A stretch of 25,144 bases of DNA from positions 1 through 25,144 of IMG/VR virus record IMGVR_UViG_3300048797_000071; one strand, given 5' to 3'. Position numbers and translations under genes: made by a program. Below the pieces are notes generated by a model. It saw only the letters and a program-made list of their open reading frames with translations, made no database searches and had not been told where the DNA came from. This document shows, piece after piece, positions 8,271-22,268 of this stretch; position 1 is the first letter of the stretch; each line of letters starts with the position of its first letter. Source of the DNA: a virus.

Positions 8271-8311
8271 CTCTTCACTAGGTTACAAGATGCAATGGCG
8301 TCCGGCTAGTG

Positions 8312-9830: not shown

Positions 9831-10090
9831 AGCGGCCTCCTGATCGTCGGGCACTTGACCCATCGCGCTTTTGCCCGCGCCACTGGATCAATACGACTCC
9901 CCCTCCCACGGCGGCTTTGTGAGGAACGAATGGCGGCGTAGTCCATCGCGGCGTCGATATCCCCGCGACTGTCCATGCAGCGGAAGAATTCGGAGCGTAA
10001 GTCCCCGTTCTTTTTACGCTTGAATCCCACGCAGGCAATCCATCCCCGGCTGATGATCCAGTTTACGCGTTGCTTGTCGTTGATCTTCAC
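9827..10090 (-). CDS. Hypothetical phage protein, paralogue of 11976-12152
   Basis: 87 residues from a GTG at 10090 (GTGA overlap, GGAGG four bases upstream). The N-terminal half (MKINDKQRVNWIISRGW through DIDAAMDYAA) aligns by eye with the gene at 11976-12152 (VKITDKQRLDWLFGD through AIDAAIKAS). The last 16 codons (ARAKARWVKCPTIRRPL) are read from a DNA segment that also occurs at 12714-12745, where it is read in another frame. Such small D-K-Q-R-x-x-W proteins are frequent in phage accessory regions; function unknown. Confidence 0.65.
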   Translation of the reverse strand: MKINDKQRVNWIISRGWIACVGFKRKKNGDLRSEFFRCMDSRGDIDAAMDYAAIRSSQSRRGRGSRIDPVARAKARWVKCPTIRRPL

Positions 10091-10344
10091 TTGCCCTCCG
10101 CTTGCTTCGACTGAGGCGGCGCGATAGTCAGAGCCTTAGCATTATTGGCCAGCGTCCTTTCTATCTGCGAAAAGGCGTTATCCATCTGCTCGTCACGAAC
10201 CCCGTCAACATCGCGGGAATACTTACCTTGATGATTGTACATTCGCCGGAAAAGGTCCTGCTGTGGCCCTGTACATTGTGTCAGCATCGTCGCCATTTGA
10301 TCGCGCAATCCGGCCCAGTAGTCCTTCATCGTTTCGCTATTCAT
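10087..10344 (-). CDS. Hypothetical phage protein (85 aa)
   Basis: Begins MNSETMKDYWAGLRDQMATM; mostly helical, with a Cys at 24 and a polar tail ending PPQSKQAEGK that is duplicated at DNA level at 8772-8799. The ATG overlaps the upstream TGA and the stop overlaps the next GTG, whose ribosome binding site lies inside this tail. No function recognised. Confidence 0.6.
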   Translation of the reverse strand: MNSETMKDYWAGLRDQMATMLTQCTGPQQDLFRRMYNHQGKYSRDVDGVRDEQMDNAFSQIERTLANNAKALTIAPPQSKQAEGK

Positions 10345-10886
10345 GGCTTCGGTCCTTCCGGCTCCGCTTGTTTCCCGGCTGAGGGGGCGAGGGCGGCGAG
10401 AGCGTCAACCGCCTTGGTCCAAACTCGCTCCGCTTCTATTCGCCGCTTGCTGGCTTCGACGGTGTAGGTCTGCTCGTTCATGGAAGCCGCCACCTTGTAC
10501 GCCGCCCGCTTTTCGAGGCTGGCGGCTATGACGGCCTCTCTCGCCGCCTCCGTCTGTGATGGCTCCGAGAGGGAGGGAGTGCGGCGGTGTAATTGTTCAA
10601 GGAGCCACGGAATGTCCTCGCGGGCATGGGCGATGAACTCGGCGGTTGCTTCGGTTAGCTTTTCGGCTTGCGTCAATTCTTCGGCGGAGTGGCAGGGCCA
10701 CTGCATCGTCAAGATTGATTCGGGGCAATCGAAAACCTTGAACGGGCTAGGGCCGTTCACGTTGATATACTCGCTCCCGGCTGAACCATATTCTTTTACG
10801 CCCCACGGCCCAGGGTGCGCCGCCTTGATCCTGTCCTCGATCTGGCGGGTACGATCTTCTGGCTTCGTCGCTTCTTCTCTCGTCAT
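10341..10886 (-). CDS. Ead/Ea22-like phage protein (181 aa)
   Basis: Residues about 13-100 follow the widespread phage pattern (A)AHPGPW…, then ATAEFIAHAREDIPWLLEQL, found in Ea22/Ead-like proteins of lambdoid and other phages; their function is not established. This is followed by the shared linker RRTPSLSEPSQTEAAREA and a helical C-terminus (ERVWTKAVDALAALAPSAG) whose end resembles that of 9162-9830 (DALAALAHAP). The ATG has GGAG six bases upstream. A possible terminator hairpin lies just upstream of the gene. Confidence 0.72.
   Translation of the reverse strand: MTREEATKPEDRTRQIEDRIKAAHPGPWGVKEYGSAGSEYINVNGPSPFKVFDCPESILTMQWPCHSAEELTQAEKLTEATAEFIAHAREDIPWLLEQLHRRTPSLSEPSQTEAAREAVIAASLEKRAAYKVAASMNEQTYTVEASKRRIEAERVWTKAVDALAALAPSAGKQAEPEGPKP
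10534..10588 (-). repeat. Dispersed repeat (copy b), 3-bp deletion variant
   Basis: Same sequence as copies a and c but missing three bases (one codon) and with one substitution; lies within the Ea22-like gene. Confidence 0.8.
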
Positions 10887-10898
10887 TTCTCGCTCCTG

Positions 10899-10928
10899 AA
10901 AAAATGTTGCGCGGATTACCCGCCGCGC
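10899..10928 (-). terminator. Possible intrinsic terminator or attenuator inside the accessory operon
   Basis: On the minus strand GCGCGG and CCGCGC form a perfect 6-bp GC stem (10923-10928 with 10909-10914) with an 8-base loop, followed after four bases by six T (10904-10899). It lies in the 55-base gap between 10942-11412 and 10341-10886. The four-base gap before the T-run makes it less than ideal. Confidence 0.4.
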
Positions 10929-10941
10929 CGGGTCCTACTCG

Positions 10942-11064
10942 CTACTTCGCCTGCTTGTTGCGCTGTTCGATTTCGAAAGCCTGCGCGTTACACAGGCGCG
11001 TCTGGGCCTTCGTCTGCTCGATTCCAGCCCTGGTAGCCTGGATGTTCGCTTCTTCTTGTGTCAT
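10942..11064 (-). CDS. Probable independent 40-aa gene inside the 3' end of the Lar-like gene
   Basis: ATG at 11064 with AGGAG seven bases upstream, in frame with the larger gene. The product begins MTQEEANIQATRAGIEQTKA and is one long polar helix with many Gln, Ala and Lys. The strong internal ribosome binding site suggests it was, or still is, translated separately. Confidence 0.45.
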   Translation of the reverse strand: MTQEEANIQATRAGIEQTKAQTRLCNAQAFEIEQRNKQAK

Positions 11065-11412
11065 TTGGTTTCTCCTGTTACTTCGGTGCGGGGATGGGAC
11101 GAGAGCGTCTTTAGCCGTATCCCACACGTCGGCATAATGGACCGGCTCGCCATTCGATACCATTTCTTCGATTTTCTCCAACGCCTCTCTCAACGCCGCC
11201 TCCGTCTGTGATGGCTCCGAGAGGGAGGGGGTGCGGCGGTTATTCCAAATCAGTACCGCGCTTTCAGGTCCCAGACATTTAGGGCCAATCGAATAGCAGG
11301 TGGGAATAGCACAATGAACCCACCACTGAGCGTTGTCATGTCCAATATTTTTTCGGCTATTCAACTCAGCTCGTCCCCCACAGAACGGACAATTCTTCAA
11401 TTCTTCCGTCAT
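10942..11412 (-). CDS. Lar-like zinc ribbon protein, apparently fused to a downstream small gene (156 aa)
   Basis: The ATG at 11412 has a strong Shine-Dalgarno, GGAGG seven bases upstream. Residues 1-58 are a Lar-type ribbon (LKNCPFCGGRAE, C8/C11; then VHCAIPTC, C33/C38; VLIWNNRR). A 20-residue linker (RRTPSLSEPSQTEAALREAL) follows, encoded by 60 bases identical to 9612-9671. Next is a helical segment and then, in frame, MTQEEANIQATRAGI…, which has its own AGGAG seven bases before an ATG at 11064. One base upstream in another frame the sequence reads IPAPK-stop, so a one-base deletion may have fused two genes. Anti-restriction role inferred from family. Confidence 0.68.
   Translation of the reverse strand: MTEELKNCPFCGGRAELNSRKNIGHDNAQWWVHCAIPTCYSIGPKCLGPESAVLIWNNRRTPSLSEPSQTEAALREALEKIEEMVSNGEPVHYADVWDTAKDALVPSPHRSNRRNQMTQEEANIQATRAGIEQTKAQTRLCNAQAFEIEQRNKQAK
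11182..11241 (-). repeat. 60-bp dispersed repeat (copy c), encoding the RRTPSLSEPSQTEA linker
   Basis: Bases 11182-11241 are identical to 9612-9671. A third copy at 10534-10588 differs by a 3-base deletion and one substitution. A degenerate trace lies near 9332-9357. All are read in the same frame inside three different genes. Confidence 0.85.
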
Positions 11413-11413
11413 C

Positions 11414-11626
11414 TTATTTCCTCCGAGTGCTTCGCTTTAGCGGCAACAATGGCCCCATGTTCTTGATCCAATCTTTCACTTCATCGTCGAAAACGGTTTG
11501 AAGCGCGGGGAGGTCGAACGCAACATCCTGAAATTTCGTTTCAATCATTTCGTCAAGATGGACGGCGATTGATCCCAGCTTGATAAGAAGTATGGCAGAC
11601 GGCTTTAGCGGGTCATTCTTTGGCAT
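11414..11626 (-). CDS. Hypothetical phage protein (70 aa)
   Basis: I place the start at ATG 11626 (MPKNDPLKPSAILLIKLGSI), two bases after the upstream stop with GGAAGG upstream. The product is helical with an acidic middle (DLPALQTVFDDEVKDWIKNM) and a basic tail (KRSTRRK). A longer frame upstream overlaps the real Cys-pair gene and is rejected. The order and spacing of this gene are typical of the accessory operon; function unknown. Confidence 0.6.
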   Translation of the reverse strand: MPKNDPLKPSAILLIKLGSIAVHLDEMIETKFQDVAFDLPALQTVFDDEVKDWIKNMGPLLPLKRSTRRK

Positions 11627-11627
11627 C

Positions 11628-11753
11628 TTATTTCCCTTCCTGTTTGCAGAATTTACAAGAGCGCGGATAGCCAGGGGATTTATGATCCGGGAATACCGCC
11701 CCGCACTCTTGGCACAAAGTTCCATCCACCATCATGTCGGCAACATCGCCCAT
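11628..11753 (-). CDS. Small zinc-finger-like protein (41 aa)
   Basis: ATG at 11753 with AGGAG seven bases upstream. The product starts MGDVADMMVDGTLCQECGAV and has two Cys pairs, LCQECG (C14, C17) and SCKFCK (C33, C36), which would bind one zinc. This layout (short acidic start, CxxCG, aromatic/Gly loop, CxxC) is a recurring phage small-protein type of unknown role. Confidence 0.68.
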   Translation of the reverse strand: MGDVADMMVDGTLCQECGAVFPDHKSPGYPRSCKFCKQEGK

Positions 11754-11764
11754 GTCAGTTCTCC

Positions 11765-11989
11765 TTACCAACCTTCAAATTCAGGCAACGCCGCTATTTC
11801 TTTTTTCGTCATCCGTAGGGCTTGAATCTTGAAATCCTCGCCATCGCCCGCTTCGACAAAACCTTTGACATCCTCGATGGCGTCTAAAAGTTTAAGGTGG
11901 ATGCACCACGCCCCACCCATGCTGGTCTTGTAGACGATGGGGCCAAAAGCCCAATCCATCAGGCGGTCAAACAATCTACGGGCGGTCAT
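11765..11989 (-). CDS. Hypothetical phage protein (74 aa)
   Basis: Starts MTARRLFDRLMDWAFGPIVY with AGGG close upstream. Contains WCIHLKLLDAIEDVKGFVEAG and ends ALPEFEGW. It overlaps the upstream gene by 14 bases and is followed by an 11-base space that holds the next ribosome binding site. Alpha/beta in appearance; family not recognised. Confidence 0.6.
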   Translation of the reverse strand: MTARRLFDRLMDWAFGPIVYKTSMGGAWCIHLKLLDAIEDVKGFVEAGDGEDFKIQALRMTKKEIAALPEFEGW

Positions 11990-12152
11990 TCACCCTCCCA
12001 CGGCGGCTTGCTTTGATGGCGGCGTCGATGGCTTGGCGCGGTGTGCGCTTTGAATCTTTCTCGTAATACACATTCTGGAAGTTAGACCAATTCCAGTAAT
12101 TTGTTCTGTCGCCAAAGAGCCAGTCTAGCCTCTGCTTGTCGGTGATCTTCAC
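11976..12152 (-). CDS. Hypothetical phage protein, paralogue of 9827-10090 (58 aa)
   Basis: GTG at 12152 with GGAGG four bases upstream. The start, VKITDKQRLDWLFGD, and the end, QAIDAAIKASRRG, match the paralogue at 9827-10090 in order and spacing. The upstream DNA (CCCTCC…CACTT… on the plus strand) also resembles that at 10083-10100, so gene and ribosome binding site appear duplicated together. Function unknown. Confidence 0.62.
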   Translation of the reverse strand: MKITDKQRLDWLFGDRTNYWNWSNFQNVYYEKDSKRTPRQAIDAAIKASRRGRVNDRP

Positions 12153-12168
12153 TTTCCCTCCACGGCGG

Positions 12169-13113
12169 TCATTTGTTCTCTGACTTCTTGTAGGTGACAG
12201 GATTTGCAAGGAACTCACAACAGCCAGGACCCCAGTGGCACTCATGCTTCCCTCGATGACCAGCGGGCTTGGCACAGGGATTATTGTTCATCGCTATCGC
12301 AAGACAATTCATCGTCGAGTATCCAGACTTCTTCACGGCTTCTCCTTTGGTGCCTGTCCCGCCTCCGCTCCCCGTAATGGGGCGGGGTTTCAGGAAGGCG
12401 AGTTCGGCCCGAAGTTCTTTTAAACGCAAGGCAATCCCTTCAGCTAAAGTCTTGTCGTCTGATCCGGGGGATTCGCCAACCGCAAGGTGGCAAGCATCTA
12501 GGTGCTTCCTCAGCGCGGCGGATTCGGCCTCGGCCTTCTCGACCATGCCTTGAACGTATTTATTCGCCGCCACTTCCAAGAGCAAGCCTTCGTTCTCTTT
12601 GTGTACGGTCGCCAGTTCTTCAACCTTGGCGCGGTAGGCGTCCGGCTTTTCTTTTTCACATAGCCAGCACTCGTCCCCCTTCCATACCCCATGACCGCAA
12701 CGATTGTCCTCGTCCTCCTGATCGTCGGGCACTTGACCCATCGCGACTTCTGCCCGCGCCTCGTCCCTCTCGGCTTCGGCGGCTTCGACACGTTCTAAGT
12801 TCACACGATTTTCGGTAATAACCTTAGACAGCGCAGACAAAGCACCTCGCAACTTTCGTTCGCTCGCTGTGGCGTTTTTCCATCGATCACACCAAGCCTT
12901 GTTAGATTCAAGAGCTTCGGATTTCGCTTTTGCCAGTTCTTCAACCTTGGCGCGATAATTGCTTGCAAGGATATTTAGCGCCATCTTCGCCCGATATGGG
13001 AGTCGGCGCGGATTGGCTTGTTCTGCCAGCGCCCATTCAAGACGCTCGGCGTCCCCTAGATGATCCATCGCCTTCTCGATTTCTTCCGGCGTCGGCTTCA
13101 AGGGTTCGGTCAT
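12169..13113 (-). CDS. Composite coiled-coil/zinc-knuckle accessory protein (314 aa)
   Basis: ATG 13113 chosen for ATGA overlap and GGAG five bases upstream. Three parts can be seen. Residues 1-125 are helical and coiled coil (YRAKVEELAKAKSEALES at 53-70). Residues 126-133 (MGQVPDDQ) come from a repeat shared with 9836-9867. Residues 139-157 hold CGHGVWKGDECWLCEKEK, a phage Cys/His knuckle, followed by a second YRAKVEELA (160-168) and another coiled coil. From V260 a Cys/His-rich end (PCAKPAGHRGKHECHWGPGC) has its own internal start (GTG 12336, GGAGAAGCC upstream). It looks like two or three genes fused. Role unknown. Confidence 0.65.
   Translation of the reverse strand: MTEPLKPTPEEIEKAMDHLGDAERLEWALAEQANPRRLPYRAKMALNILASNYRAKVEELAKAKSEALESNKAWCDRWKNATASERKLRGALSALSKVITENRVNLERVEAAEAERDEARAEVAMGQVPDDQEDEDNRCGHGVWKGDECWLCEKEKPDAYRAKVEELATVHKENEGLLLEVAANKYVQGMVEKAEAESAALRKHLDACHLAVGESPGSDDKTLAEGIALRLKELRAELAFLKPRPITGSGGGTGTKGEAVKKSGYSTMNCLAIAMNNNPCAKPAGHRGKHECHWGPGCCEFLANPVTYKKSENK
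12714..12745 (-). repeat. 32-bp dispersed repeat shared with 9836-9867
   Basis: The 32 bases are identical at 9836-9867. Just beyond (plus-strand 12746 and 9868 onward) the two copies differ by a one-base indel, which puts them in different reading frames. Confidence 0.85.
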
Positions 13114-13331
13114 GGCTTCTCCGGGGAGGGCGCGGGATGGGATAGGGCGGCAACGCATATCTGCAATATCTGGATGTCCTCTTTGAACGGGCCGCAGGAC
13201 ATCATTAGCTTTTCAAACATCGGCGTCACGGCCTCCAGTGCCTCGCGCATCCTATCGACTTCTGAATGGAGGCGGATTATCTCGGCTGTCTGCCTCTCGC
13301 ATAGACGGGCTAGGGTATCTTCGGTGGTCAT
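13110..13331 (-). CDS. Hypothetical helical phage protein (73 aa)
   Basis: ATG 13331 has GGAGG four bases upstream and ATGA overlap with the repeat-protein gene. The product starts MTTEDTLARLCERQTAEIIR, is a long amphipathic helix (RLHSEVDRMREALEAVTPMF), then ends AALSHPAPSPEKP, a tail similar to those in neighbouring genes (SSPAPK). Function unknown. Confidence 0.62.
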   Translation of the reverse strand: MTTEDTLARLCERQTAEIIRLHSEVDRMREALEAVTPMFEKLMMSCGPFKEDIQILQICVAALSHPAPSPEKP

Positions 13332-13714
13332 CTAACCTCCAACTTGGCGTTCGCGTTGATGGAGAGGTGCCCACCGACGGAGGTCAGCGCGTCGAGCTTG
13401 GCGTTCGCGTTGATGTCGAGGTCCCCACCGACGGAGGTCAGCGCGTCGAGCTTGGCGTTCGCGTTGATGGAGAGGTACCCACCGACGGAGGTCAGCGCGT
13501 CGAGCTTGGCGTTCGCGTTGATGTAGAGGTACCCACCGACGGAGGTCAGCGCGTCGAGCTTGGCGTTCGCGTTGATGTCGAGGTCCCCACCGACGGAGGT
13601 CAGCGCGTCGAACTTGGCGTTCGCGTAGATGTAGAGGTTGCCTGTGATCTTGGTATACGGGCAAATATCTCCCGCGTTAATGGTTAAGTTGCCTTCATAG
13701 ATTTCTTGTTTCAT
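13328..13714 (-). CDS. Tandem-repeat beta-solenoid-like protein (128 aa)
   Basis: First gene after the 13.7-kb promoter. After a 30-residue lead (MKQEIYEGNLTINAGDICPY…), residues 31-120 are five exact-length 18-residue repeats of the form ANAKLDALTSVGGxLxIN, with a partial sixth. Repeats with regularly spaced Leu/Val/Ile and Gly-Gly turns suggest a leucine-rich-repeat or beta-helix-like solenoid. Only the two x positions vary much (D/D, Y/Y, Y/S, D/D, H/S), so they would line one exposed face. I recall similar repeats in other phage proteins, with no known function. The Shine-Dalgarno GGAGG/GAAGAG precedes the ATG. Confidence 0.72.
   Translation of the reverse strand: MKQEIYEGNLTINAGDICPYTKITGNLYIYANAKFDALTSVGGDLDINANAKLDALTSVGGYLYINANAKLDALTSVGGYLSINANAKLDALTSVGGDLDINANAKLDALTSVGGHLSINANAKLEVR
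13355..13624 (-). repeat. 54-bp tandem repeat, five full copies
   Basis: Five head-to-tail copies of 54 bases, nearly identical except at the two variable codons and the first copy (TTC for CTC, giving Phe). A partial copy continues to about 13340. There are no spacers, so this is not a CRISPR array. Confidence 0.9.
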
Positions 13715-13717
13715 AGT

Positions 13718-13744
13718 CTACTCTTCCTCCGTGATTGGGTTCAT
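13718..13744 (-). CDS. Possible 8-codon upstream ORF
   Basis: ATG at 13744 lies 10 bases after the -10 box, near the predicted transcript start. It encodes MNPITEEE and stops at TAG three bases before the real gene start, overlapping that gene's Shine-Dalgarno. It could modulate translation, but may be chance. Confidence 0.2.
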   Translation of the reverse strand: MNPITEEE

Positions 13745-13748
13745 TGTC

Positions 13749-13764
13749 GTATTAATTATAATAC
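13749..13764. promoter_or_regulatory. Inverted repeat over the -10 box, candidate operator
   Basis: GTATTA and TAATAC flank four bases (ATTA), making a 16-base palindrome that covers the -10 hexamer and reaches the predicted start. A regulator bound here would block the promoter. AT-rich palindromes also arise by chance. Confidence 0.45.
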
Positions 13765-13783
13765 TACTTCTCTTTGTTGTCAA
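13755..13783 (-). promoter_or_regulatory. Consensus sigma70 promoter driving the accessory operon
   Basis: The -35 TTGACA (13783-13778) and -10 TATAAT (13760-13755) are both exact consensus with a 17-base spacer. The predicted start is near 13748, some 34 bases before the ATG at 13714. It lies in the only gap between the methyltransferase and the repeat-protein gene. Confidence 0.88.
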
Positions 13784-13786
13784 GGG

Positions 13787-14572
13787 CTAAAACAGCCTCC
13801 CATCTTCAAAGGCTTTCTCTGGCGGCAACACCGCGGCGCGGTTCATGCGCTCGGAGGCCATCGCATGGAAAACGGAGGCGAGTTCTATTCCGATCCATTT
13901 GCGGCCGATGCGGTTGGCGGCGTCCAGGGTTGACCCGCTTCCGCAGAACGGGTCGAGGACGATGTCGCCTGGCTTGGAGTGCAGGGCGATAAAGTGCTGG
14001 GCCAGCTTCGGCGACTTCTCGGTGGGGTGTTGATCGGCGGCGGGGATGATCTTCGGCACGGCCCCGGCGCGCAAAATGTTCTCGACAGCGTTGGTTTCGT
14101 CGTACCATCGGCAGGCGGCACCTGGCTTCTGGGCCACGAGCACCGTTTCGTAGCTTCGGCGATAGTGCCAGCCCATGCCCATCGGGCCTTTGTCCCAAAT
14201 GACCATCTGCTTGAAGTCAAGTTCTTCGTCGAGCCACAAAGACCAGCGGGCGAACTGTGGGTCGGGGCCGCCGCCGCAGCAGCAGCAGCAGCAGCAGCTC
14301 CCCGGCTTCAAAATCCGCCGTGCCTCTTTGAAAAATTGGCGAACCAAATCGTTTGCCTCGGCCCCGTCGTTTAAAATCGGACGGGCCTCGGTGGAACGAC
14401 GGCGATTGGGAGAAAGCCCTAGGGCGGCCTCTCGATTGTGAATCAGATCGCCGTCGTTGTTCTTGTGGCCGTAGGGCGGGTCTGTAAAAATAAAGTCGAT
14501 TGAATCGTCGTCGAAAGAGCGCATAATTTCAATGCACTCTCCCTGGTAAATCTTGTTTAGTTCAGGCGTCAT
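13787..14572 (-). CDS. Beta-class DNA methyltransferase (N6-adenine or N4-cytosine)
   Basis: 261 residues. The catalytic TDPPYG (DPPY at 31-34) comes before the SAM-binding DPFCGSGST (208-216), the motif order of beta-class enzymes. The HPTEKSPKL segment near 183-191 is the usual HPTEKP-like motif of phage and restriction-system methylases. Residues 93-99 are seven consecutive Cys from a TGC repeat, followed by GGG. I recall Cys-rich runs at this site in other phage methylases, but cannot check. No restriction partner is seen nearby, so it is probably an orphan that protects phage DNA. It overlaps the upstream gene as ATGA. Confidence 0.9.
   Translation of the reverse strand: MTPELNKIYQGECIEIMRSFDDDSIDFIFTDPPYGHKNNDGDLIHNREAALGLSPNRRRSTEARPILNDGAEANDLVRQFFKEARRILKPGSCCCCCCCGGGPDPQFARWSLWLDEELDFKQMVIWDKGPMGMGWHYRRSYETVLVAQKPGAACRWYDETNAVENILRAGAVPKIIPAADQHPTEKSPKLAQHFIALHSKPGDIVLDPFCGSGSTLDAANRIGRKWIGIELASVFHAMASERMNRAAVLPPEKAFEDGRLF
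14276..14296 (-). repeat. (GCA)7 trinucleotide run inside the methyltransferase
   Basis: Seven perfect GCA units on the plus strand give seven Cys codons (TGC). Slippage would add or remove residues without shifting the frame. Confidence 0.9.
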
Positions 14573-14988
14573 TCAAATGACTCACCGAAAGTATCGTCAT
14601 TCGCAGCCCGTTCTTGCGGGGCTTTTTTCTCGGGAACTTTTGCCGCGGCTTGCGGGGCGGGGGTTGCCTTGGACGGCACGCCCTTTGTCGGAATAACTTT
14701 TGACTCTGGCGCGTAGCCGTCTTTCGTCTTGACGAAATAATACGGCGGGTTTGGATGGGTCGCTACCATCGCGTCCCATGCGCTACGCGGAAAATCTCTT
14801 ATCGTGAATCGGTCGATCTTTAGTTGACCCGCGATCTGGCTGCATCCTTTCCAGTCGCCGACGCAACAGGAAATCGTCCCGATGATCTTCCGGCCGGTCG
14901 GCGTGTTGAGAAAAATCTCCTCCTCGTATCGGGACTTCCCGCAACAGGCCGACATTGTTTCTATTTTTACGTCAGGTTTGTCGTTCAT
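14569..14988 (-). CDS. Hypothetical protein with Cys-rich head and acidic tail (139 aa)
   Basis: ATG 14988 chosen for ATGA overlap (an upstream ATG at 15072 would overlap the replication gene by 88 bases). The N-terminal half has SACCGKS, SCCVGDWKGC and an alpha/beta core (IDRFTIRDFPRSAWDAMV); the C-terminal 50 residues are Pro/Ala/Lys-rich, ending NDDTFGESFE, an acidic aromatic tail reminiscent of phage single-strand-binding proteins. It lies between the replication gene and the methyltransferase. A DNA-metabolism role is plausible but unproven. Confidence 0.6.
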   Translation of the reverse strand: MNDKPDVKIETMSACCGKSRYEEEIFLNTPTGRKIIGTISCCVGDWKGCSQIAGQLKIDRFTIRDFPRSAWDAMVATHPNPPYYFVKTKDGYAPESKVIPTKGVPSKATPAPQAAAKVPEKKAPQERAANDDTFGESFE

Positions 14989-15752
14989 TCGCCCGCCTCG
15001 ATGTAGCATTCTTCGCAAGCCGCTTTCCCGCCAACCGTAGAGATCGCGGTGTGTTTTTTGCAGATTTCGCACTTCGGAGCCGCCGGCATTACGTAGGTTT
15101 TTTTGACCGCGGCGATATCCCCGGCGTCATCGAGCCATCGTTCTTGATTGAGCCAGGTCGCGGGATGGGGGATGTATTGGCCGTTTTCTTTTTGCCACTG
15201 AACGGACCCGGTTTGAGACTTTACGGCGGCCAGGATGGTTTTTACAAGGTCCTCGGTCAAGGTGATTTTGTTCCAGGCTTTGAGGGCGGCCCCCCGACCC
15301 ACCCGTTTGGGGTAAAGATTCCAAAACCCGTCAAAGCCTGTTGTTGGTTTGGTAGGGTTAGGTAGGGTAGGGTAGGGTAGGGTAGCCAAAGGTTTACGCC
15401 GTTTTGACGGACGTTTTACGGAAGATTTACGCCGTTGCTCGTTGTATAGCCTATCTCCGACGAGCCGACCTGCCCGTTCTACCCAATCATGGACCACGAA
15501 ACCGTCCAAAAAACCCACCTCGCGCAACGCTTTGACACATGCTCCTTTTTCACCTTCCCACCACGCCGCTCGCTCAATTTCCGCGTCTCCCCAGGGCTCA
15601 AGGTTGGCGTCTTTCCAGGCGTTTCGGAGAACGAAATGCCAGAGGCCGTGAAGGTGCCCGATCGCGGCGGCCCGGCCGATATTGAGCATGGCACAAAGCC
15701 TAATCGTTTTGTGATGCTCCCAAATAGTGTCATGCGACTCGATCCATGCCAT
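14985..15752 (-). CDS. Replisome-organiser/replication initiation-like protein with C-terminal zinc ribbon
   Basis: 255 residues. Residues 1-105 look like a winged-helix N-terminal domain of phage replication proteins (MAWIESHDTIWEHHKTIRL, then VKALREVGFLDG). A Pro-rich linker (TLPYPTLPNPTKP, 124-136) comes from a pentanucleotide repeat. Residues 139-210 match the pattern FDGFWNLYPKRVGRGAALKAW…YIPHPATWLNQERW seen in phage replisome organisers, which load the host helicase at the origin. A four-Cys knuckle ends the protein (C228, C231, C246, C249). The start has only a weak Shine-Dalgarno and follows a structured leader. Family is by pattern. Confidence 0.78.
   Translation of the reverse strand: MAWIESHDTIWEHHKTIRLCAMLNIGRAAAIGHLHGLWHFVLRNAWKDANLEPWGDAEIERAAWWEGEKGACVKALREVGFLDGFVVHDWVERAGRLVGDRLYNEQRRKSSVKRPSKRRKPLATLPYPTLPNPTKPTTGFDGFWNLYPKRVGRGAALKAWNKITLTEDLVKTILAAVKSQTGSVQWQKENGQYIPHPATWLNQERWLDDAGDIAAVKKTYVMPAAPKCEICKKHTAISTVGGKAACEECYIEAGE
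15351..15385 (-). repeat. Seven-unit pentanucleotide repeat (GGTAG) within the replication gene
   Basis: Seven tandem 5-base units on the plus strand, the second being GGTTA, encode part of the Pro-rich linker. Because 5 is not a multiple of 3, loss or gain of one unit would shift the frame. Confidence 0.88.
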
Positions 15753-15763
15753 TCTTTATCCGT

Positions 15764-15889
15764 TCAACGCCTCGCGTTAGCAATCGGGAGGTCCAGAAAA
15801 ATTAAGCCGCCGTACCGGCCGCTCGCCCGAGAAGGAGGGTAGCCAGGTACGGCGGGGAAGTCGGGTTGTCTCGTTTCTCGGGCGAGCAT
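15764..15889 (-). CDS. Possible 41-codon leader ORF at the transcript start
   Basis: ATG at 15889 coincides with the predicted transcription start of the 15.9-kb promoter (six bases after the -10 box), so translation would be leaderless. The product begins MLARETRQPDFPAVPGYPPS and stops at TGA 15764, 11 bases before the replication gene. The frame runs through both inverted repeats, so the sequence may be constrained by RNA or DNA structure instead. It could be a leader peptide. Confidence 0.3.
   Translation of the reverse strand: MLARETRQPDFPAVPGYPPSRASGRYGGLIFLDLPIANARR
15807..15887. promoter_or_regulatory. Two interleaved perfect inverted repeats (leader RNA structure or operator/origin)
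   Basis: Arms A (15875-15887) and A' (15821-15833) are a perfect 13-base inverted repeat. Arms B (15846-15855) and B' (15807-15816) are a perfect 10-base inverted repeat. In the transcript the order is A, 19 bases, B, 12 bases, A', 4 bases, B', so the pairs interlock as a pseudoknot or as alternative hairpins. B' is followed by a T-run (CTTAATTTTT), so the B hairpin resembles a terminator. A starts at the predicted +1. This may be an attenuator, riboregulator or origin element; no known class recognised. Confidence 0.7.
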
Positions 15890-15895
15890 GATCTG

Positions 15896-15924
15896 ATTTT
15901 AATTTATCGCGTGAACTTTGTCAA
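15896..15924 (-). promoter_or_regulatory. Sigma70 promoter for the replication gene
   Basis: TTGACA (15924-15919) and TAAAAT (15901-15896) with a 17-base spacer. Upstream (15925-15975) is AT-rich with long A-tracts, perhaps an UP element or an unwinding region. The predicted start is near 15889. Confidence 0.82.
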
Positions 15925-15975
15925 GAAAAAAATATATTTCCGTCGCAAAACCGTTACACGTCGAACCAAAAAAAA

Positions 15976-16503
15976 TCATTCGCCGATCCCTGTTCCATAC
16001 GCCGCTTCCAACTCAGCGAGCATCGCAACGAGGTCGGCGCGTTTCGCGTTGTGAATCGTCATTGAGGCGATTCTCCACCGTTCGTCCATGAACAGCTTGC
16101 CGAAAATCTTTTCGTGGACTTGCGCGAAGTAGGCGCGGCGCCGGCGTTCGGCTTCGTTGGCAGAACGACAGGCCCAGACCACGTTTGGGGGGTCAAGCCT
16201 TGCTGCCTCGCCTTCGTTTTGCGGGACCAAGTGATAGGCCAGCTCCCCTTCGTGCGGGCCGACTTCGTAGAAATGCGGGCAGTATTCTCCGAGTCGGCAA
16301 AGCGGCCCATTCAAGGCTTTATCGCGCAGGCCGAGGAGCCGGACGACCCGCTTCCTGATCTTGCCGAGGCTCCACGGCTTGCCGCGCTTGTCAAAACCCG
16401 GTTTACCGGCCCAGAGTTCCTTCCGCTTCGCGGCGCGGGAAACCTTGCGGGCCGCTGACTTCTGCTTTTCGGCCTTGGCTTGGGCGTAGGTCTTGGGGAT
16501 CAT
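15976..16503 (-). CDS. NinG/HNH-like recombination-region protein (175 aa)
   Basis: ATG 16503 overlaps the upstream TGA (ATGA). The N-terminal 55 residues are very basic (KTYAQAKAEKQKSAARKVSR), as in lambda NinG/Rap. A Cys pair (C69, C75), a central His (AYHLVPQ, H91), an R-x-D-x-x-N segment (RLDPPNVVWAC) and following helix fit a NinG-type HNH fold, a Holliday-junction or branched DNA nuclease. It follows the ERF/exonuclease genes, as NinG-like genes often do. Several family residues are not obvious, so the call is moderate. Confidence 0.55.
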   Translation of the reverse strand: MIPKTYAQAKAEKQKSAARKVSRAAKRKELWAGKPGFDKRGKPWSLGKIRKRVVRLLGLRDKALNGPLCRLGEYCPHFYEVGPHEGELAYHLVPQNEGEAARLDPPNVVWACRSANEAERRRRAYFAQVHEKIFGKLFMDERWRIASMTIHNAKRADLVAMLAELEAAYGTGIGE

Positions 16504-16877
16504 GCCATCCACTGCGCCCGGCGCATACGGGCTTTCAAGGCTTCGGAAAGCCCCTTGATCTTATCCCGGAGCATCCGAGGCCCTAGGCACTTGAACTTGA
16601 GAATTTTCTCGCGTTCGCCGGCCGTTCCGTGGTCCCGGTCCAGTTTCATAAGCTCGACGTATTCGTGCCAGTCCAGCCAGGCGTTCGCTTCGGCGAGGAT
16701 ATCGGTCACGCTCCGACATTTGTCCTCGGTCATCGTCGCTTGTGCTTCTTGCTCTGCCGGATTTTTCGATAGCGAATCTTCAAGCATCGCCTGGCCTTCG
16801 GCGATTTGCGGCGTTATGTCGCCGAGCCACTGCTCGAAAGTTTTCCCTGCCACCGGCGAGGCTGGTTGTTCGCTCAT
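16500..16877 (-). CDS. Hypothetical protein of the recombination module (125 aa)
   Basis: Begins MSEQPASPVAGKTFEQWLGD and is mostly helical, with an acidic first half (AEGQAMLEDSLSKNPAEQEA) and a basic end (LSEALKARMRRAQWMA). It overlaps both neighbours as ATGA between ERF and the NinG-like gene, so it is probably part of the recombination operon. No family recognised. Confidence 0.6.
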   Translation of the reverse strand: MSEQPASPVAGKTFEQWLGDITPQIAEGQAMLEDSLSKNPAEQEAQATMTEDKCRSVTDILAEANAWLDWHEYVELMKLDRDHGTAGEREKILKFKCLGPRMLRDKIKGLSEALKARMRRAQWMA

Positions 16878-17521
16878 TTGGGGGCCGCGTGTTGCCGCTC
16901 GATCCAGGCGAGAACTTTCGCGAGGTCGGCCTTTTTGATATCAGCGGTTGACGAAACCTCGAACTGGTCTTGAAGGTAAGCCGCGACGACTTCGTCGGGG
17001 ATTCCCTTCGCCTTCCAGGCGTTAAAAAGCGTCGTTCGCTCCGCGCCGGAGATTGTGTCGCCCGACTCAGGCTTCCCGGCCTTCGCTGCGCCCTTGAGCT
17101 TGTCGGCGAGTTTCTTCGTCTCAGCGGTCTTGCCGCCGCGGGTCATCGAGGCAATCCTGCCGTCGTCGTCGTCTTGTAATATCCCGACCATCGCGGCGAG
17201 GGAGTAGCGGCGGGCGTAAGTGAACGCCGACCCGTACCCCTGAGGATCGTCCTTGACGGGCCTGACGAGGTATTCCCCGCTGATGAACTGCCCCGAGCTG
17301 TGAACCAGAATTGTCTGGCAGAGTTGAACCCCGTCGCGGAAAACCGGCGATTGAATGACCGCGACTTCGTTCTTCGTCAGTTCTTCGTGGCAAGCCTCCC
17401 AGACCGCCGCGAGGTCGGCATACTTCGACTTAAAGAAGGGGTTCGTTTTGTCCTTCTTGGCGACTTTGATTTCGGCCTGAACGCGAATCATCGCCGCCGC
17501 GATCTTTTCTCTCGGTTCCAT
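16874..17521 (-). CDS. erf: ERF-family single-strand annealing protein
   Basis: 215 residues. ERF proteins (P22 Erf type) anneal single strands during phage recombination and circularisation. The family pattern is clear: NPFFKSKYADLAAVWEAC (27-44), then strands around GVQLCQTILVHSSGQFI, GSAFTYARRYSLAAMVGI (97-114) and DDDDG (117-121). The C-terminal 80 residues (from GRIAS) are a helical tail, including a SAP-like or HeH-like end (DEVVAAYLQDQFEVSSTADI). It starts on the TAA of the exonuclease gene (TAATG), and the pair form a two-component recombination system. Confidence 0.92.
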   Translation of the reverse strand: MEPREKIAAAMIRVQAEIKVAKKDKTNPFFKSKYADLAAVWEACHEELTKNEVAVIQSPVFRDGVQLCQTILVHSSGQFISGEYLVRPVKDDPQGYGSAFTYARRYSLAAMVGILQDDDDGRIASMTRGGKTAETKKLADKLKGAAKAGKPESGDTISGAERTTLFNAWKAKGIPDEVVAAYLQDQFEVSSTADIKKADLAKVLAWIERQHAAPK

Positions 17522-18450
17522 TATTTCGCCCCCTTTTTGACCTTGATTTCCGACACGCGCAATACTCTCGCGCTCCCTTCCTTGCCGAATCGATCATAAA
17601 TCGTCGGGTCCTCTTTCTTGATTCTTTCGAGGTCGAGCCGGACGCCGGTCGATTGGTTCTTCCAGGTCGCTCGGTAACTCCCGGCCGTGGCCTCGGAAGC
17701 TTCGCCGATAGCCTGGCGTATTTCGTTGGCGATCCGATCCCTCTTTTCTTCGAGTTCGTCAATGTCTTTGCCGAGAGACTTGTACAACGACATTCTTGAT
17801 TCGTACTCCGGCAGGACGATGACGCTCTCGTCTCCCTTCGGGAATAGCTTGTACAGCGTAGCGGAATCTCCGGCGCTGGCAGGAGGCATTTTCTTCGGCA
17901 GGACGTAGCGGTCCCAAAATTCAGCCGCTTGCTTCTCGATGTTCGCGATCATCTCGTCGTCGCGCTCGATCCGCTTGTAGAAAAAATCGCGGTTCCCACC
18001 GATCAGGCATGCGATGTAGCAGAGGTCCTTCCCGGTCACGGCTAACTGCCAGAGGCATTGAAGGACGTACTCCTGCGGAACGTCGTCGCCTTCCCATTCC
18101 TTTGCTTTGAACTCGCCGGCCGATTTGCACTCAAGGAGCGCGTCCTCGCCGATGACGAGACGGTCTACCTGGGCCTTGAAGTGCGGGAATTTCTTGTGCG
18201 TGAATGACTCAGCCGCCCGCTTGACCTTAAACCCGGTTTCTTCCTCGAACAACTCCGCGATGACGGGTTCAAGTTTGTGCCCGAGGCGAATCGGCAGCTT
18301 TTTGCTGATATCCTCCGGCGCGAGAGCCCCGGTCTTTTCGGCCCAAACGTCAACGGCTGTCCGATATCGCGAAAACCCCAAGATAGCAGCGATATCGCTC
18401 CCGCCGATGAAGGTCCTGCGCTCAGTCTGGCGCTGCGTCTCCGTGGTCAT
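17521..18450 (-). CDS. YqaJ-type lambda exonuclease
   Basis: 309 residues. Processive 5'-3' exonucleases of this family make the ends that ERF or Beta anneal. Motifs: GGSDIAAILG (16-25), G-H-K-LEP (E61), an active-site Asp in KAQVDRL (D96), the catalytic LECKSA (E107, K109) and the family Y-x-x-Q (YVLQ, 128-131). A helical C-terminus (from EYESRMSLYKSL) is typical of phage YqaJ proteins. GGGAG lies six bases before the ATG. It lies next to the ERF gene in the same operon. Confidence 0.93.
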   Translation of the reverse strand: MTTETQRQTERRTFIGGSDIAAILGFSRYRTAVDVWAEKTGALAPEDISKKLPIRLGHKLEPVIAELFEEETGFKVKRAAESFTHKKFPHFKAQVDRLVIGEDALLECKSAGEFKAKEWEGDDVPQEYVLQCLWQLAVTGKDLCYIACLIGGNRDFFYKRIERDDEMIANIEKQAAEFWDRYVLPKKMPPASAGDSATLYKLFPKGDESVIVLPEYESRMSLYKSLGKDIDELEEKRDRIANEIRQAIGEASEATAGSYRATWKNQSTGVRLDLERIKKEDPTIYDRFGKEGSARVLRVSEIKVKKGAK

Positions 18451-18758
18451 TTTTTTCTCCCTTTAAGTAGTCTCATTTCAAAGAGCTTCGCGAGGTCCGG
18501 CCGCTTGTCGCACAACAGGCGAACATAACGGCTCGTATAGTTGTTGTTGATCTTGTAGTCGTTGGCCGGGTCCGTTCCGCCGATCCAGGATTCCCACCGG
18601 ACCAGTTCTAGGAGAAATTTGGCCCCGACTCGGACCCGGCCTTTCGCTCTTGCATCTTCCGCGAGATGAACGAACTCCGCGAATACTTGCGGGTTGTTCG
18701 CGTGGTACTCCGCGAAGCGTTGGTCGAGCGACTTGACGTACAGATCGCATTGAGTCAT
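18447..18758 (-). CDS. Conserved phage hypothetical protein (103 aa)
   Basis: Begins MTQCDLYVKSLDQRFAEYHA; pattern F-x-x-F/Y-H-x-x-N-P…KFLLELVRWESWIGG…YKINNNYTSRYVRLL…LAKLFEMR, a well-known phage protein with unknown function found beside recombination and regulatory genes. It overlaps the exonuclease start and the Cro-like stop as ATGA. DNA-binding or nucleic-acid handling is possible but not visible in the sequence. Confidence 0.75.
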   Translation of the reverse strand: MTQCDLYVKSLDQRFAEYHANNPQVFAEFVHLAEDARAKGRVRVGAKFLLELVRWESWIGGTDPANDYKINNNYTSRYVRLLCDKRPDLAKLFEMRLLKGRKK

Positions 18759-18961
18759 TCGGCCTCGGGGAACTTGGTCCAGCCGTGACGCTTGCCGACG
18801 GCGTTGATCCGTAGAACGGCGCGGTTAGCGGGGTAGGAGTCGTCTTGACGCCATTTTGCGACGGCTCCGTGAGAGTAGGCGACGGCGTAAGCCAGGCTTT
18901 CGATGGTAAGCCCGTTTTCGTCCATCCACTTTGCGACGGGGGTTTTGGTTGCGGTTTTCAT
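18755..18961 (-). CDS. Cro-like helix-turn-helix protein (68 aa)
   Basis: 68 residues. The HTH is seen at LTIESLAYAVAYSHGAVAKW (18-37): helix, turn at YSHG, then recognition helix. Small Cro-type repressors of this length control early phage promoters. It is the first gene after the 18.97-kb promoter, whose spacer carries a short palindrome, so autoregulation is likely. The predicted transcript starts only about four bases before the ATG, and no Shine-Dalgarno is visible, so translation may be leaderless. Confidence 0.75.
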   Translation of the reverse strand: MKTATKTPVAKWMDENGLTIESLAYAVAYSHGAVAKWRQDDSYPANRAVLRINAVGKRHGWTKFPEAE

Positions 18962-18971
18962 ATCTATATTA

Positions 18972-19001
18972 AGGATACCAAGTTTAATAGTAAACTGTCA
19001 A
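18972..19001 (-). promoter_or_regulatory. Early promoter with operator-like palindrome in the spacer
   Basis: TTGACA (19001-18996), 18-base spacer, TATCCT (18977-18972, four of six). The spacer contains the palindrome GTTTACTATTAAAC (18995-18982; arms GTTTA and TAAAC), where a Cro-like protein could bind. It overlaps the end of the upstream gene. Confidence 0.68.
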
Positions 19002-19273
19002 TCGACTTGCAGCCGATGCCCCACCGTCCGCAAAAATCCGTCGTCCTCTTTGAGCGCGTGTTGAACGAGGTCGGGAAGGACAACCCCGCAAGCGTCACGG
19101 ACGGTCTGAACCTCAAAGACCCCCGGCGTTCCGTAGGCTTCCCACATATCGGGATGGCCTTTTCGGTTCGGCGGGATCGCGGGCTGGTACTCGCCTTCCA
19201 CGATTAAAGAGATGGGCGGCGCACTGTTTTCGTATGGCAGAACGTGTTCGACGTCGATTCGGAAGGGGATCAT
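18998..19273 (-). CDS. Hypothetical phage protein (91 aa)
   Basis: ATG 19273 overlaps the upstream TGA (ATGA). Product begins MIPFRIDVEHVLPYENSAPP and contains LIVEGEYQPAIPPNRKGHP and VRDACGVVLPDLVQHALKED. Looks like a small alpha/beta protein. Its 3' end lies in the -35 region of the next promoter. Function not recognised. Confidence 0.6.
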   Translation of the reverse strand: MIPFRIDVEHVLPYENSAPPISLIVEGEYQPAIPPNRKGHPDMWEAYGTPGVFEVQTVRDACGVVLPDLVQHALKEDDGFLRTVGHRLQVD

Positions 19274-19506
19274 CGGCCGGCCTGGACTTGCCCGCGCAAG
19301 CGTCTTTCGTGCCGTTCGAGGTCTTTCGCATGAGCGATGATCGAGCGAACCGTCATCGCAAAATTCGGCTTGATGTAATCGAGGTCTGCCGCAAGAGCCT
19401 TGACGAGCAAGACTTTCGCGTTGATTTCTTGGGCGTGTAGCAGGCCGGGGACGTTGTCGTGGCCTTGCCAGTCTCCGGTCTTGCGGCTGGGGTTTTTGGT
19501 TTCCAT
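19270..19506 (-). CDS. Hypothetical phage protein (78 aa)
   Basis: Begins METKNPSRKTGDWQGHDNVP. The segments GLLHAQEINAKVLLVKALAADLDYIKPNF and SIIAHAKDLERHERRLRGQV (split here) are helical with Lys/Arg; this resembles a recurring phage hypothetical protein. The ATG coincides with the predicted transcription start of the promoter at 19513-19541, with no Shine-Dalgarno, so a leaderless mRNA is predicted. Confidence 0.62.
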   Translation of the reverse strand: METKNPSRKTGDWQGHDNVPGLLHAQEINAKVLLVKALAADLDYIKPNFAMTVRSIIAHAKDLERHERRLRGQVQAGR

Positions 19507-19512
19507 ACCCCA

Positions 19513-19541
19513 ATTGTAGTATTAAAGTTACTCCCCGTCAA
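19513..19541 (-). promoter_or_regulatory. Sigma70 promoter
   Basis: TTGACG (19541-19536), 17-base spacer, TACAAT (19518-19513); each hexamer matches five of six. The ATG of the next gene is six bases after the -10, at the expected +1. Confidence 0.78.
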
Positions 19542-19602
19542 GACCTATTTTTAATCGAACCGAGAAATCCTCGCCGCGTGAAAGTCTATCGAGATTGAAC
19601 GC

Positions 19603-19770
19603 CTATCCTTCGTCGGCGTGTCGGTCGAAGGCTTCCTCGCCTTCCGCTTCGAGCGCCGCGTCGCTCTTGCCTTTGAGGTTTTCGATTCTAAACCGCCAGC
19701 CGCATGAGCAGCCGTAGCGGATAAGGCCGAAGTCAATTCGGACATGATTCACTTTGCGGCGACGGCTCAT
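19603..19770 (-). CDS. Small CxC-motif protein (55 aa)
   Basis: Begins MSRRRKVNHVRIDFGLIRYG, then CSCGWRF (C21, C23) and a helical acidic end (AALEAEGEEAFDRHADEG). A longer frame at 19551-19745 in another phase lacks such features and is rejected. Small CxCGW proteins recur in actinobacterial and other phages with unknown function. It starts three bases after the holin-like stop; AGG lies just before ATG. Confidence 0.6.
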   Translation of the reverse strand: MSRRRKVNHVRIDFGLIRYGCSCGWRFRIENLKGKSDAALEAEGEEAFDRHADEG

Positions 19771-19773
19771 TGC

Positions 19774-20076
19774 CTACGGAATCGCAATGGCCGCGGCGAC
19801 GGCCGAAACGTCGGCTCCCGGTTTCTTTGCGTCGGTCTGAACCGCCGGGCTGTTCGGGTTCGCCATGCGGCGAGCCTTGAACCACTCGAAGGCGGCGTTG
19901 GCAAGGAGCATTAGCTCGACCTGCAGCTTCGCCGGATCGACGGAAACGGAAACCCCGGCCTTGACCGCGAGGTTCTGAACGACCGGGCCGGCGACATAGG
20001 CGGCGATAATGAGGGCCGCGCGAGCGACGAGCTTCCCTAGGAATACGTTCAACAGCCAGCCTTCGATTTTGTCCAT
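19774..20076 (-). CDS. Holin-like membrane protein of the lysis cassette (100 aa)
   Basis: Beginning MDKIEGWLLNVFLGKLVARA, with one clear transmembrane helix (LVARAALIIAAYVAGPVV, residues 16-33) and perhaps a second hydrophobic segment (LQVELMLLANAAFEWFKARR, near 50-70). It directly follows the endolysin gene, so a holin or holin-related role is likely. A class II/III holin would usually have one to two segments; the exact class cannot be decided. Confidence 0.62.
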   Translation of the reverse strand: MDKIEGWLLNVFLGKLVARAALIIAAYVAGPVVQNLAVKAGVSVSVDPAKLQVELMLLANAAFEWFKARRMANPNSPAVQTDAKKPGADVSAVAAAIAIP

Positions 20077-20086
20077 AATTTCTCCT

Positions 20087-20512
20087 TTACGTTGTAGATG
20101 TCCCCGGAGCGGCGTAAAACCCGAGGAAGCCGGGCTGGGCGAGCCAAGCGGCGACGGGCCTCAAAATGACCTGATTGTGCGGGGCTCCCCGCGCCTCGAT
20201 GACGACGCCGTTACCGCAGGAGACGACGACGTGATCCACATTCGTACCGTCCGAGGCGAAGAAACCGAGACTTTTCGCCGGCGGGTTCTGTTGAAGGGAG
20301 CCAGGGAGCTTCTCGCAGACCTTGATTTGATTATAGGACCCGTCCGGGAGGGTGACGCCGTCCCAGAATAGGACCCATTGAGAAAAGCCCGAGCAATCGA
20401 CCGGCCCCCGTAGATTCGCGACGGGAGCGCCGGGGGTCCACTTCGACCCGAGATTGTAGGGCATCCCGACGGTCTGTAGAGCGGTCAGAATCGCCTGGGG
20501 GTATTCGCTCAC
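20087..20512 (-). CDS. NlpC/P60-like endolysin
   Basis: 141 residues from GTG 20512 (GTGA overlap). NlpC/P60 enzymes cut stem peptides of peptidoglycan. The catalytic Cys lies in VDCSGFSQW (C40), the His is probably H94 in NVDHVVVSCGNGVVIEARG (split here: VDHVVV, then GVVIEA), and a later polar residue would be near H112. Length suits a stand-alone lysis domain with no cell-wall-binding module. Its place between two small membrane proteins makes a lysis role strong. Confidence 0.85.
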   Translation of the reverse strand: MSEYPQAILTALQTVGMPYNLGSKWTPGAPVANLRGPVDCSGFSQWVLFWDGVTLPDGSYNQIKVCEKLPGSLQQNPPAKSLGFFASDGTNVDHVVVSCGNGVVIEARGAPHNQVILRPVAAWLAQPGFLGFYAAPGTSTT

Positions 20513-20718
20513 TTACTAACCCGCCCAAGGATCGTATCGAGTTTGGCATCCATCCGTTGAAGTTGCTGATCGAAATCTGCGTCTTTCGTTTCGAGGACGG
20601 ACATTCTCGTCGGGAGATCGGAGAATTTCAAGAAGGCCGCGCCGAGAACCAGGATCGCGACTCCGAGGATTATTTCCCGGAACGGGACCGCCATTCTCCT
20701 ATCTGTGTCAACATGCAT
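20509..20718 (-). CDS. Small membrane/coiled-coil protein of the lysis cassette (69 aa)
   Basis: Begins MHVDTDRRMAVPFREIIL; a transmembrane helix lies at FREIILGVAILVLGAAFL (13-30), followed by a coiled-coil region (MSVLETKDADFDQQLQRMDA). This TM-plus-coiled-coil layout resembles i-spanins or haemolysin XhlA-type proteins. AAGGAG lies eight bases before the ATG, and the gene shares one base with the upstream stop. Its exact lysis role is inferred. Confidence 0.62.
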   Translation of the reverse strand: MHVDTDRRMAVPFREIILGVAILVLGAAFLKFSDLPTRMSVLETKDADFDQQLQRMDAKLDTILGRVSK

Positions 20719-22268
20719 TATCTTTTCTCCTTTCCATATTTTGAAGTCAAAAAGTTGGAAAGGGCCTGGGCCGTCGCGCCCCCCGCGCCTTTCGGGGCGG
20801 TGAACGTCGGGCGCGTGTTGGCCATCGCCCGGACGGCCGGCGCGGTCTTGAGCGCGATATTCTTCCCGATCTGTTCGACCGGAGGGACTTGGCCCATTGA
20901 GGCGACATTGACGATGGTCGAGAGCAACCCTCGGAGGCTGAAATGCCCCGCCGGACCGCCGACCAATTCCCGGCCTTCGACATAGCGGAGCATCGGGAGA
21001 ATCCGGCTTGAATTGTGGTAGTCGAGTTTCGCTTTGTCGTAGACGGCTTTCAATTCGGGATTGTTGATAGATTGCCCGTAACTATCCACGAGTTTGTTCA
21101 TTCGGTCGGCCAGCGATCCGTAGACCTGGGCCATTTCGGGGTCTTTGGCGATTTGCTTCCCGGCCATTTCTTTGATCTGTTGCAGGGCCTCGAAGTCGGT
21201 TACGTTCTGCGTCCCCAAATGGTCGAGGGTTTTCCCGAGTTTAAGGATTCGCGCCTCGGTCGCCGGGTCGGCGGTGTTGAGCGCAAAATCCTTGAGTTCT
21301 TCCGCGAGTTCGCCGCCTTCGACTAGAGGATGACCGAGGACCGCCGCGGGCGGGGAGCTTGCCCCTACCTTGTCGATGATATCTCCGATCGTTTGCCCGG
21401 ATGTTTCGTGAATCGTGCTGATCTTCGAGAGGAGTTCCCCCGGACGGTCAAGCAGGCCGTGGAGAGACTTCCCGCCCGGCCCGGCGGTGTCCATCCACTC
21501 ACCCAGGTTGTTGAGGGCCTGGACCGGATTTTCCTTGCCGAAAACCTTCATGAGTTGCCGCGGCGTCCCGCCCAAGCCTTGAGCGAGTTGGGAGGCGTAG
21601 ACCCTTTGAGCCGATGGCCTGAAATTGGGGGCCGTGACCTTGCTCGGGACCGCTACTCCGGCGATATCCTTCGGAGGTGTTGCCGAGGGGGCTGCGGGCG
21701 CGACTGGCGCGGCCTTTGGTACGGCTTCCTCAGCGATAGGGGCCGCGGCTTCCTCCCCCGCTTCGGCGGCGGGCTCGGCACCTTTCGCAAAGAGCTTGCC
21801 GAGCCCTGAAAATGCCTTCCCCATGCCGCCGGCGAGCAGAGCGTTTCCCCCGACCTGGGCCGCATCGGCGGCGGTCGGCTTGGTCAAATTCACGTCAGAA
21901 GCGGCCTGCGCTGCCCCTAGGGCGGCGTTGCCGAGGAACGGCGCGGCCTCAAGGCCCTCCCCGACACCGGGAATCGCAAGGGGGGCCAGGGTTCCGGCGG
22001 TTGCCCCCGCTCCGTAGGCGACGGGGTGTTGACCCTTGGCCGTTTCGGCGGCTTGGGTCAGGTGTTCCATTTCGGAACTGTAATCCTGTTTGTCCGAGAA
22101 AGGATTGATCGGAGCCGCGGCGGCGGCGAGTTGTTGAGCCCCTGGGAAGTTGCGGAGCGCCCCGCGGCCGGCGGCGGCGAGCGCTCCCTCGTCGGGGACG
22201 GCCTCATGGTCCGGCGTCTCGAAAGAAGCGTCTACCGCTTCATGGTCCGGCGTCTCGAAATCGGCCAT
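20718..22268 (-). CDS. Internal virion/ejection-type protein (516 aa)
   Basis: The N-terminus has a duplicated 12-residue unit (FETPDHEAV twice, residues 4-24). Long Ala/Gly-rich helical stretches follow (VAYGAGATAGTLAPLAIPGV, then FLGNAALGAAQAAS), like membrane-penetrating segments of phage ejection proteins. After a Pro/Ala linker (about 170-200) the last 300 residues are helical (VYASQLAQGLGGTPRQL…, DKAKLDYHNSSRILP). In podoviruses such proteins lie inside the capsid and exit first to form a channel. Adjacent start and stop codons link it to its neighbours. Role inferred from composition and context. Confidence 0.7.
   Translation of the reverse strand: MADFETPDHEAVDASFETPDHEAVPDEGALAAAGRGALRNFPGAQQLAAAAAPINPFSDKQDYSSEMEHLTQAAETAKGQHPVAYGAGATAGTLAPLAIPGVGEGLEAAPFLGNAALGAAQAASDVNLTKPTAADAAQVGGNALLAGGMGKAFSGLGKLFAKGAEPAAEAGEEAAAPIAEEAVPKAAPVAPAAPSATPPKDIAGVAVPSKVTAPNFRPSAQRVYASQLAQGLGGTPRQLMKVFGKENPVQALNNLGEWMDTAGPGGKSLHGLLDRPGELLSKISTIHETSGQTIGDIIDKVGASSPPAAVLGHPLVEGGELAEELKDFALNTADPATEARILKLGKTLDHLGTQNVTDFEALQQIKEMAGKQIAKDPEMAQVYGSLADRMNKLVDSYGQSINNPELKAVYDKAKLDYHNSSRILPMLRYVEGRELVGGPAGHFSLRGLLSTIVNVASMGQVPPVEQIGKNIALKTAPAVRAMANTRPTFTAPKGAGGATAQALSNFLTSKYGKEKR

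Follow-up and report, generated by a model that had tools for sequence, protein, structure and literature searches.

Small pseudoknots of the H type are located at the 5′ end of the preQ1-I, SAM-II, and fluoride riboswitches, where they are joined to an expression platform. In the phage P4 immunity leader and CI RNA, pairing of the leader RNA controls premature termination ahead of the replication genes, and at the HK022 put sites and in the lambda pR′/6S RNA leader a structured or terminated leader is found immediately past a strong phage promoter. The ompA leader provides 5′-terminal stabilization against 5′-end-dependent decay. Attenuators and transcriptional riboswitches that use intrinsic terminators are diverse and quickly evolving (PMC2965389).

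The DNA analyzed here (the window) is a 25,144-base IMG/VR virus record from an unclassified phage, and the genes that we took as real are all on the minus strand. Two interlocked inverted repeats occupy an intergenic region of 223 bases (15753-15975), in the gene order RecE-like exonuclease, ERF, 125-aa protein, 178-aa protein, leader, rep, 167-aa protein, and DNA methyltransferase. They most likely form part of a structured leader RNA controlling rep, the replication initiation gene, and its fold probably limits the amount of replication protein made. The features of the locus are as follows:

about 15925-15940, minus strand: A/T-rich UP-like tract just upstream of the promoter, from the sequence
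15924-15896, minus strand: sigma-70-type promoter, TTGACA-17-TAAAAT, 11 of 12 consensus matches
15890-15888, minus strand: predicted transcription start, 6-8 bases past the -10 hexamer, placed from the promoter
15875-15887, minus strand: arm A, GCTCGCCCGAGAA, which contains the 10-bp near-palindrome CTCGCCCGAG
15846-15855, minus strand: arm B, CCGCCGTACC
15821-15833, minus strand: arm A′, TTCTCGGGCGAGC
15807-15816, minus strand: arm B′, GGTACGGCGG
15805-15820, minus strand: competing short terminator-like hairpin of 5 bp, GGCCG-GUACGG-CGGCU, compatible with A:A′
15797-15806, minus strand: U-rich tract, CUUAAUUUUU, where the putative leader RNA of about 90 nt would end, from the sequence and a terminator scan
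14985-15752, minus strand: rep, downstream of the leader, 255 aa (phrog_9474, E 9.7e-44; phrog_270, E 1.2e-24)

A promoter, a structured noncoding leader, a putative terminator-like hairpin with a U-tract, and then the gene were found in the same order as in the attenuators and transcriptional riboswitches surveyed in PMC2965389. Unlike in those systems, the arms cross (A-B-A′-B′) instead of sharing a segment, and termination is compatible with A:A′. In contrast to transcriptional riboswitches, there is no ligand, no conserved aptamer, and no Rfam match. The preQ1-I, SAM-II, and fluoride riboswitches share with this locus a small 5′ pseudoknot, here predicted, and an expression platform; the helices here are larger (13 and 10 bp, joined by 19, 12, and 4 nt), match them in no sequence, and precede a phage replication gene. 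The predicted RNA pairing in a leader before a phage replication gene recalls P4. However, the arms would pair within one short leader, and neither a processed CI-like RNA nor repeated seqA/seqB/seqC elements were seen in the sequence. As in HK022 put and lambda pR′/6S, the structured leader directly follows a strong phage promoter, but put consists of two successive, uncrossed hairpins, and no Q-like antiterminator gene was identified in this phage. The leader would work like an attenuator or a pseudoknot leader, and we assign it to none of the described classes.

Both inverted repeats reported in the earlier note lie at the coordinates given there and are perfect (A/A′ 13/13, B/B′ 10/10), and their minus-strand order, A-B-A′-B′, is interlocked as it had described. 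The connectors on the minus strand are 19 nt (A-B), 12 nt (B-A′), and 4 nt (A′-B′), the last one (GGCC, 15820-15817) being absent from that note. This is the sole interlocked pair with arms of at least 9 bases in the whole window. In 2,000 windows simulated with an order-2 Markov model, a 13-base arm pair alone occurred in 6.4% and an interlocked pair with both arms of at least 10 bases in 1.25%; none of the 2,000 had an interlocked pair with summed arms of at least 23. When the intergenic region (223 bases) was simulated 20,000 times with an order-1 model, a pair of 13 or more bases appeared in 0.04% of the runs, and interlocked pairs of 10 or more bases each never did; the thresholds were chosen after the arms were known, and all these figures describe rarity rather than pre-registered tests. 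The interlocked arms are a real, nonrandom feature.

The promoter at 15924-15896 ranks second best in a scan of 8000-25144. Its position puts the predicted start 1-3 bases ahead of arm A, in agreement with the proposal that transcription begins at the first arm, and the phrog_9474 and phrog_270 matches bear out that the gene downstream encodes a replication protein. The promoter scan gave no plus-strand promoter near 15700-15900, and an antisense RNA over the leader was discarded on this ground. Three other strong minus-strand promoters (13755-13783, 18972-19001, and 19513-19541) have an operator-like motif in common (TAGTATTAAAGTT/AGTTTACTATTAAACT/GTAGTATTATAATTAATACGAC) that is absent at the rep-leader promoter, which is therefore probably controlled differently. 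This motif is perhaps the binding site of a 68-aa protein (18755-18961) that resembles a Cro-type regulator and for which the family search gave no match. The ATGs at 19506 and 18961 (minus strand) are about 7 and 11 bases past the -10 hexamers of promoters 19541 and 19001, a placement that suggests leaderless mRNAs.

The 95-nt leader RNA had a folding z of -3.75, and none of 200 shuffles was as stable. The full 144-nt leader was less remarkable (z -1.21), so the folding signal is confined to the arms. The plus strand of the same stretch folded about equally well (z -3.33), as is expected of inverted repeats; thus, folding by itself cannot tell whether the element acts as RNA. In nested folding, the pair probability of A:A′ was 0.98 and that of B:B′ was <0.005, nested B:B′ being disfavored by 4.2 kcal/mol. 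With A:A′ formed, either the 15820-15805 hairpin fits or B:B′ can form as a pseudoknot. A rough estimate for A:A′ plus B:B′, with constants of the Dirks-Pierce model and geometry ignored, was about -41 to -42 kcal/mol at a penalty of 9.6, versus -38.1 for the best nested fold, and 0 of 1,000 shuffles reached the native value. At a penalty of 12 the pseudoknot roughly equaled the nested fold and at 15 the nested fold won, the advantage being gone at about 13 kcal/mol or more. If about 6 angstrom per nucleotide is taken as the simple reach of a connector, the 12- and 19-nt connectors can, by length, span the helices. The crossing helices are present, and for penalties of up to about 12 the rough energy is at or slightly below that of the best nested fold; by energy, the pseudoknot of A:A′ and B:B′ suggested earlier is plausible under this model.

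The end of B′ is followed by one base and then by the U-rich tract. The tract, C-TTAATTTTT-C (also noted as C-UUAAUUUUU-C), is interrupted by AA, and for this reason we consider the terminator moderate only: the T-run that had been described after the last arm is there, and its likeness to a terminator is partial. The stem before it is GC-rich, whether B:B′ or the 15820-15805 hairpin. Terminator-like sites are not enriched in the window (22 observed vs. 28.6 expected). As both states place a GC-rich stem against the U-tract, partial termination after about 90 nt is the simplest reading.

The location of A at the predicted RNA start, the end of B′ one base before the U-tract, and the folding of the 95-nt leader, better than 200 of 200 shuffles, all favor a role as RNA. 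Our leading interpretation, a tentative one, is a cis-acting structured leader with a partial intrinsic terminator at its 3′ stem that restricts read-through into rep. RNA polymerase would begin 1-3 nt ahead of arm A at a good promoter, and the cis-acting structured RNA would be the leader of the rep transcript. Once A′ is transcribed, A:A′ would form a 13-bp 5′-terminal hairpin and then stay. B, in the 41-nt loop of A:A′, would pair with B′ to give the pseudoknot, or B′ would join the short 15820-15805 hairpin. In either state the GC-rich stem would abut the U-tract, and a fraction of the polymerases would terminate at about 15798, releasing an RNA of about 90 nt, while the remaining ones would read through into rep. 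In this way the leader would set how much Rep is made and may also regulate it, possibly through a factor that stabilizes or opens the pseudoknot. The sequence and folding analyses establish the arms, the promoter match, the U-tract, the order of the genes, and a nonrandom fold; from these we infer RNA production, termination, pseudoknot formation, and modulation by a factor or condition alike.

An attenuator or riboregulator had been proposed for this region. The promoter, structured leader, U-tract, and gene order agree with that proposal, whereas a clean two-state switch does not hold, given nested A:A′ at 0.98 and the compatible hairpin. No mutually exclusive antiterminator and terminator were found, and A:A′ coexists with a hairpin at the same U-tract. 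Since the 15820-15805 hairpin fits with A:A′ formed, whether A:A′ is open or closed may make no difference to termination; A:A′ does not exclude the terminator in these folds, and a two-state attenuator is therefore not supported. The alternative of an origin element was weakened by iteron-like repeats inside rep (15346-15436), a location more typical of an origin, and the leader itself had no short-spaced direct repeats. The repeats in rep consist of CTACC pentamers, two AACGGCGTAAA-like copies, and further GTAAA units, and we regard them as a candidate replication origin.

The arms could instead act as DNA. In this explanation, which is unlikely and yet the foremost of the rivals, the two A-arm palindromes are the binding sites of a repressor, from the phage or its host, that shuts off the rep promoter, possibly through a DNA loop. 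The near-palindromes (CTCGSSCGAG) occur in two copies about 54 bp apart, or about five helical turns and near a whole number of them, at roughly +2 to +14 and +56 to +68, beside the start site. The exact palindrome CTCGNNCGAG occurs in the window only at the two A arms; the same site is thus not repeated at several promoters, as a repressor operator might be, and the motif common to the three other promoters differs, although an operator special to the rep-leader promoter is possible. Moreover, 10 bp is short for a phage repressor site, the flanks and center of the A arms also match in inverted form, a match that a pair of separate operators would not require, and B/B′ and the U-tract are left unexplained. 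Somewhat less probable is a trans-acting phage sRNA, in which the promoter mainly makes an abundant pseudoknotted RNA of about 90 nt that binds protein or RNA, with rep expressed mostly by read-through. The good promoter with its A/T-rich upstream tract, a stable noncoding RNA, and the terminator-like 3′ end would suit it, but its position directly upstream of rep is that expected of a leader, no relatives were found, and it overlaps the explanation that we prefer. More doubtful again is a phage-encoded, pseudoknotted leader RNA that belongs to no class described so far; it would respond to a factor of the phage or the host, such as Rep itself, a different phage protein, or a metabolite, gate rep transcription, and double as a regulatory RNA of about 90 nt.

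The 13-bp stem with a very short 5′ tail (1-3 bases) would also suit a 5′ stabilizer, in which A:A′ near the RNA end shields the rep mRNA from 5′-end-dependent decay and B/B′ is secondary; this explanation, which leaves B/B′ and the adjacency of B′ to the U-tract unaccounted for, we regard as improbable. Translation of the leader is very improbable. It would start from an ATG (15889) that falls on the predicted +1, as a leaderless 41-aa ORF that crosses the arms and ends 11 nt before rep, and would open A:A′ and be coupled to rep. The weak ribosome-binding site of rep is in keeping with such coupling, and promoters 19541 and 19001 likewise put an ATG about 7-11 bases from the -10. On the other hand, arm A starts with the G of this ATG, so that A:A′ begins inside the codon, the ORF had no family match, and its codon-usage score was -0.03, compared with 0.03 to 0.40 for nearly all gene ORFs, most of them >0.1; by this score we judged the leaderless ORF unlikely and the arm segment noncoding. 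There is hardly any chance that the arms are repeats that arose by accident or remnants of insertions, with no function. This is a single sequence, but the arms are positioned relative to the promoter and the U-tract, and the simulations gave 0 of 2,000 windows and 0 of 20,000 intergenic regions.

The search for relatives of the favored structured leader revealed no homologous leader in phage or plasmid records or in IMG/VR or GTDB contigs, collections that may lack records very close to that of the window. Two weak, short matches to the leader were taken as chance, as was the one match to the A′+B′ pattern, with no partner arms seen nearby. The full A/A′ arm pattern had no match in the search, and its core was found in six places that we took as unrelated. 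One of them, L029 (about 2087-2155), from an unrelated viral contig, has the core of arm A within a longer perfect inverted repeat, about 19 bp when extended by eye (AACACGGCTCGCCCGAGTT), and was read as a different element. The loci of distant Rep homologues (L002-L007 and L021-L025) had no interlocked repeats; in loci L008-L020 such repeats were short (9-11 bases), none of them at a rep leader. Rfam gave no family above the gathering score, in line with the earlier statement that no known class was recognized. At E values of up to 10, a Mg-II riboswitch (E 0.4), CRISPR-DR13 (E 1.6), and mir-2290 (E 3.5) appeared below the threshold and were taken as chance. The literature search named no matching system. 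Since attenuators are diverse and quickly evolving (PMC2965389), an orphan leader is not by itself surprising.

The terminase, the portal, Rep, and the protein upstream had no close relative among IMG/VR or GTDB contigs, and the nearest named phage, CP017838, shares 24-27% identity (terminase, portal). For now the leader is a single orphan, far from what chance would give and known from sequence alone. If it gates rep, it would be an unusual crossed-stem attenuator by which a small RNA element controls replication, in a phage group of which hardly any relatives are known.

The genes around the leader gave some further observations. The 178-aa protein upstream (15976-16512), which had no match in the family search, may be an HNH/NinG-like nuclease. 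A further small hairpin (AACGC-GAG-GCGTT, 15764-15776) closely precedes the start codon of rep, with a possible effect on translation of the gene. The methyltransferase gene (13787-14572, minus strand) encodes a run of seven cysteines (GSCCCCCCCGGG) at about 14230-14300, derived from a trinucleotide repeat that could expand or contract, and a 128-aa protein (13328-13714, minus strand) consists almost wholly of repeats of about 18-20 residues (INANAKLDALTSVGGYL).
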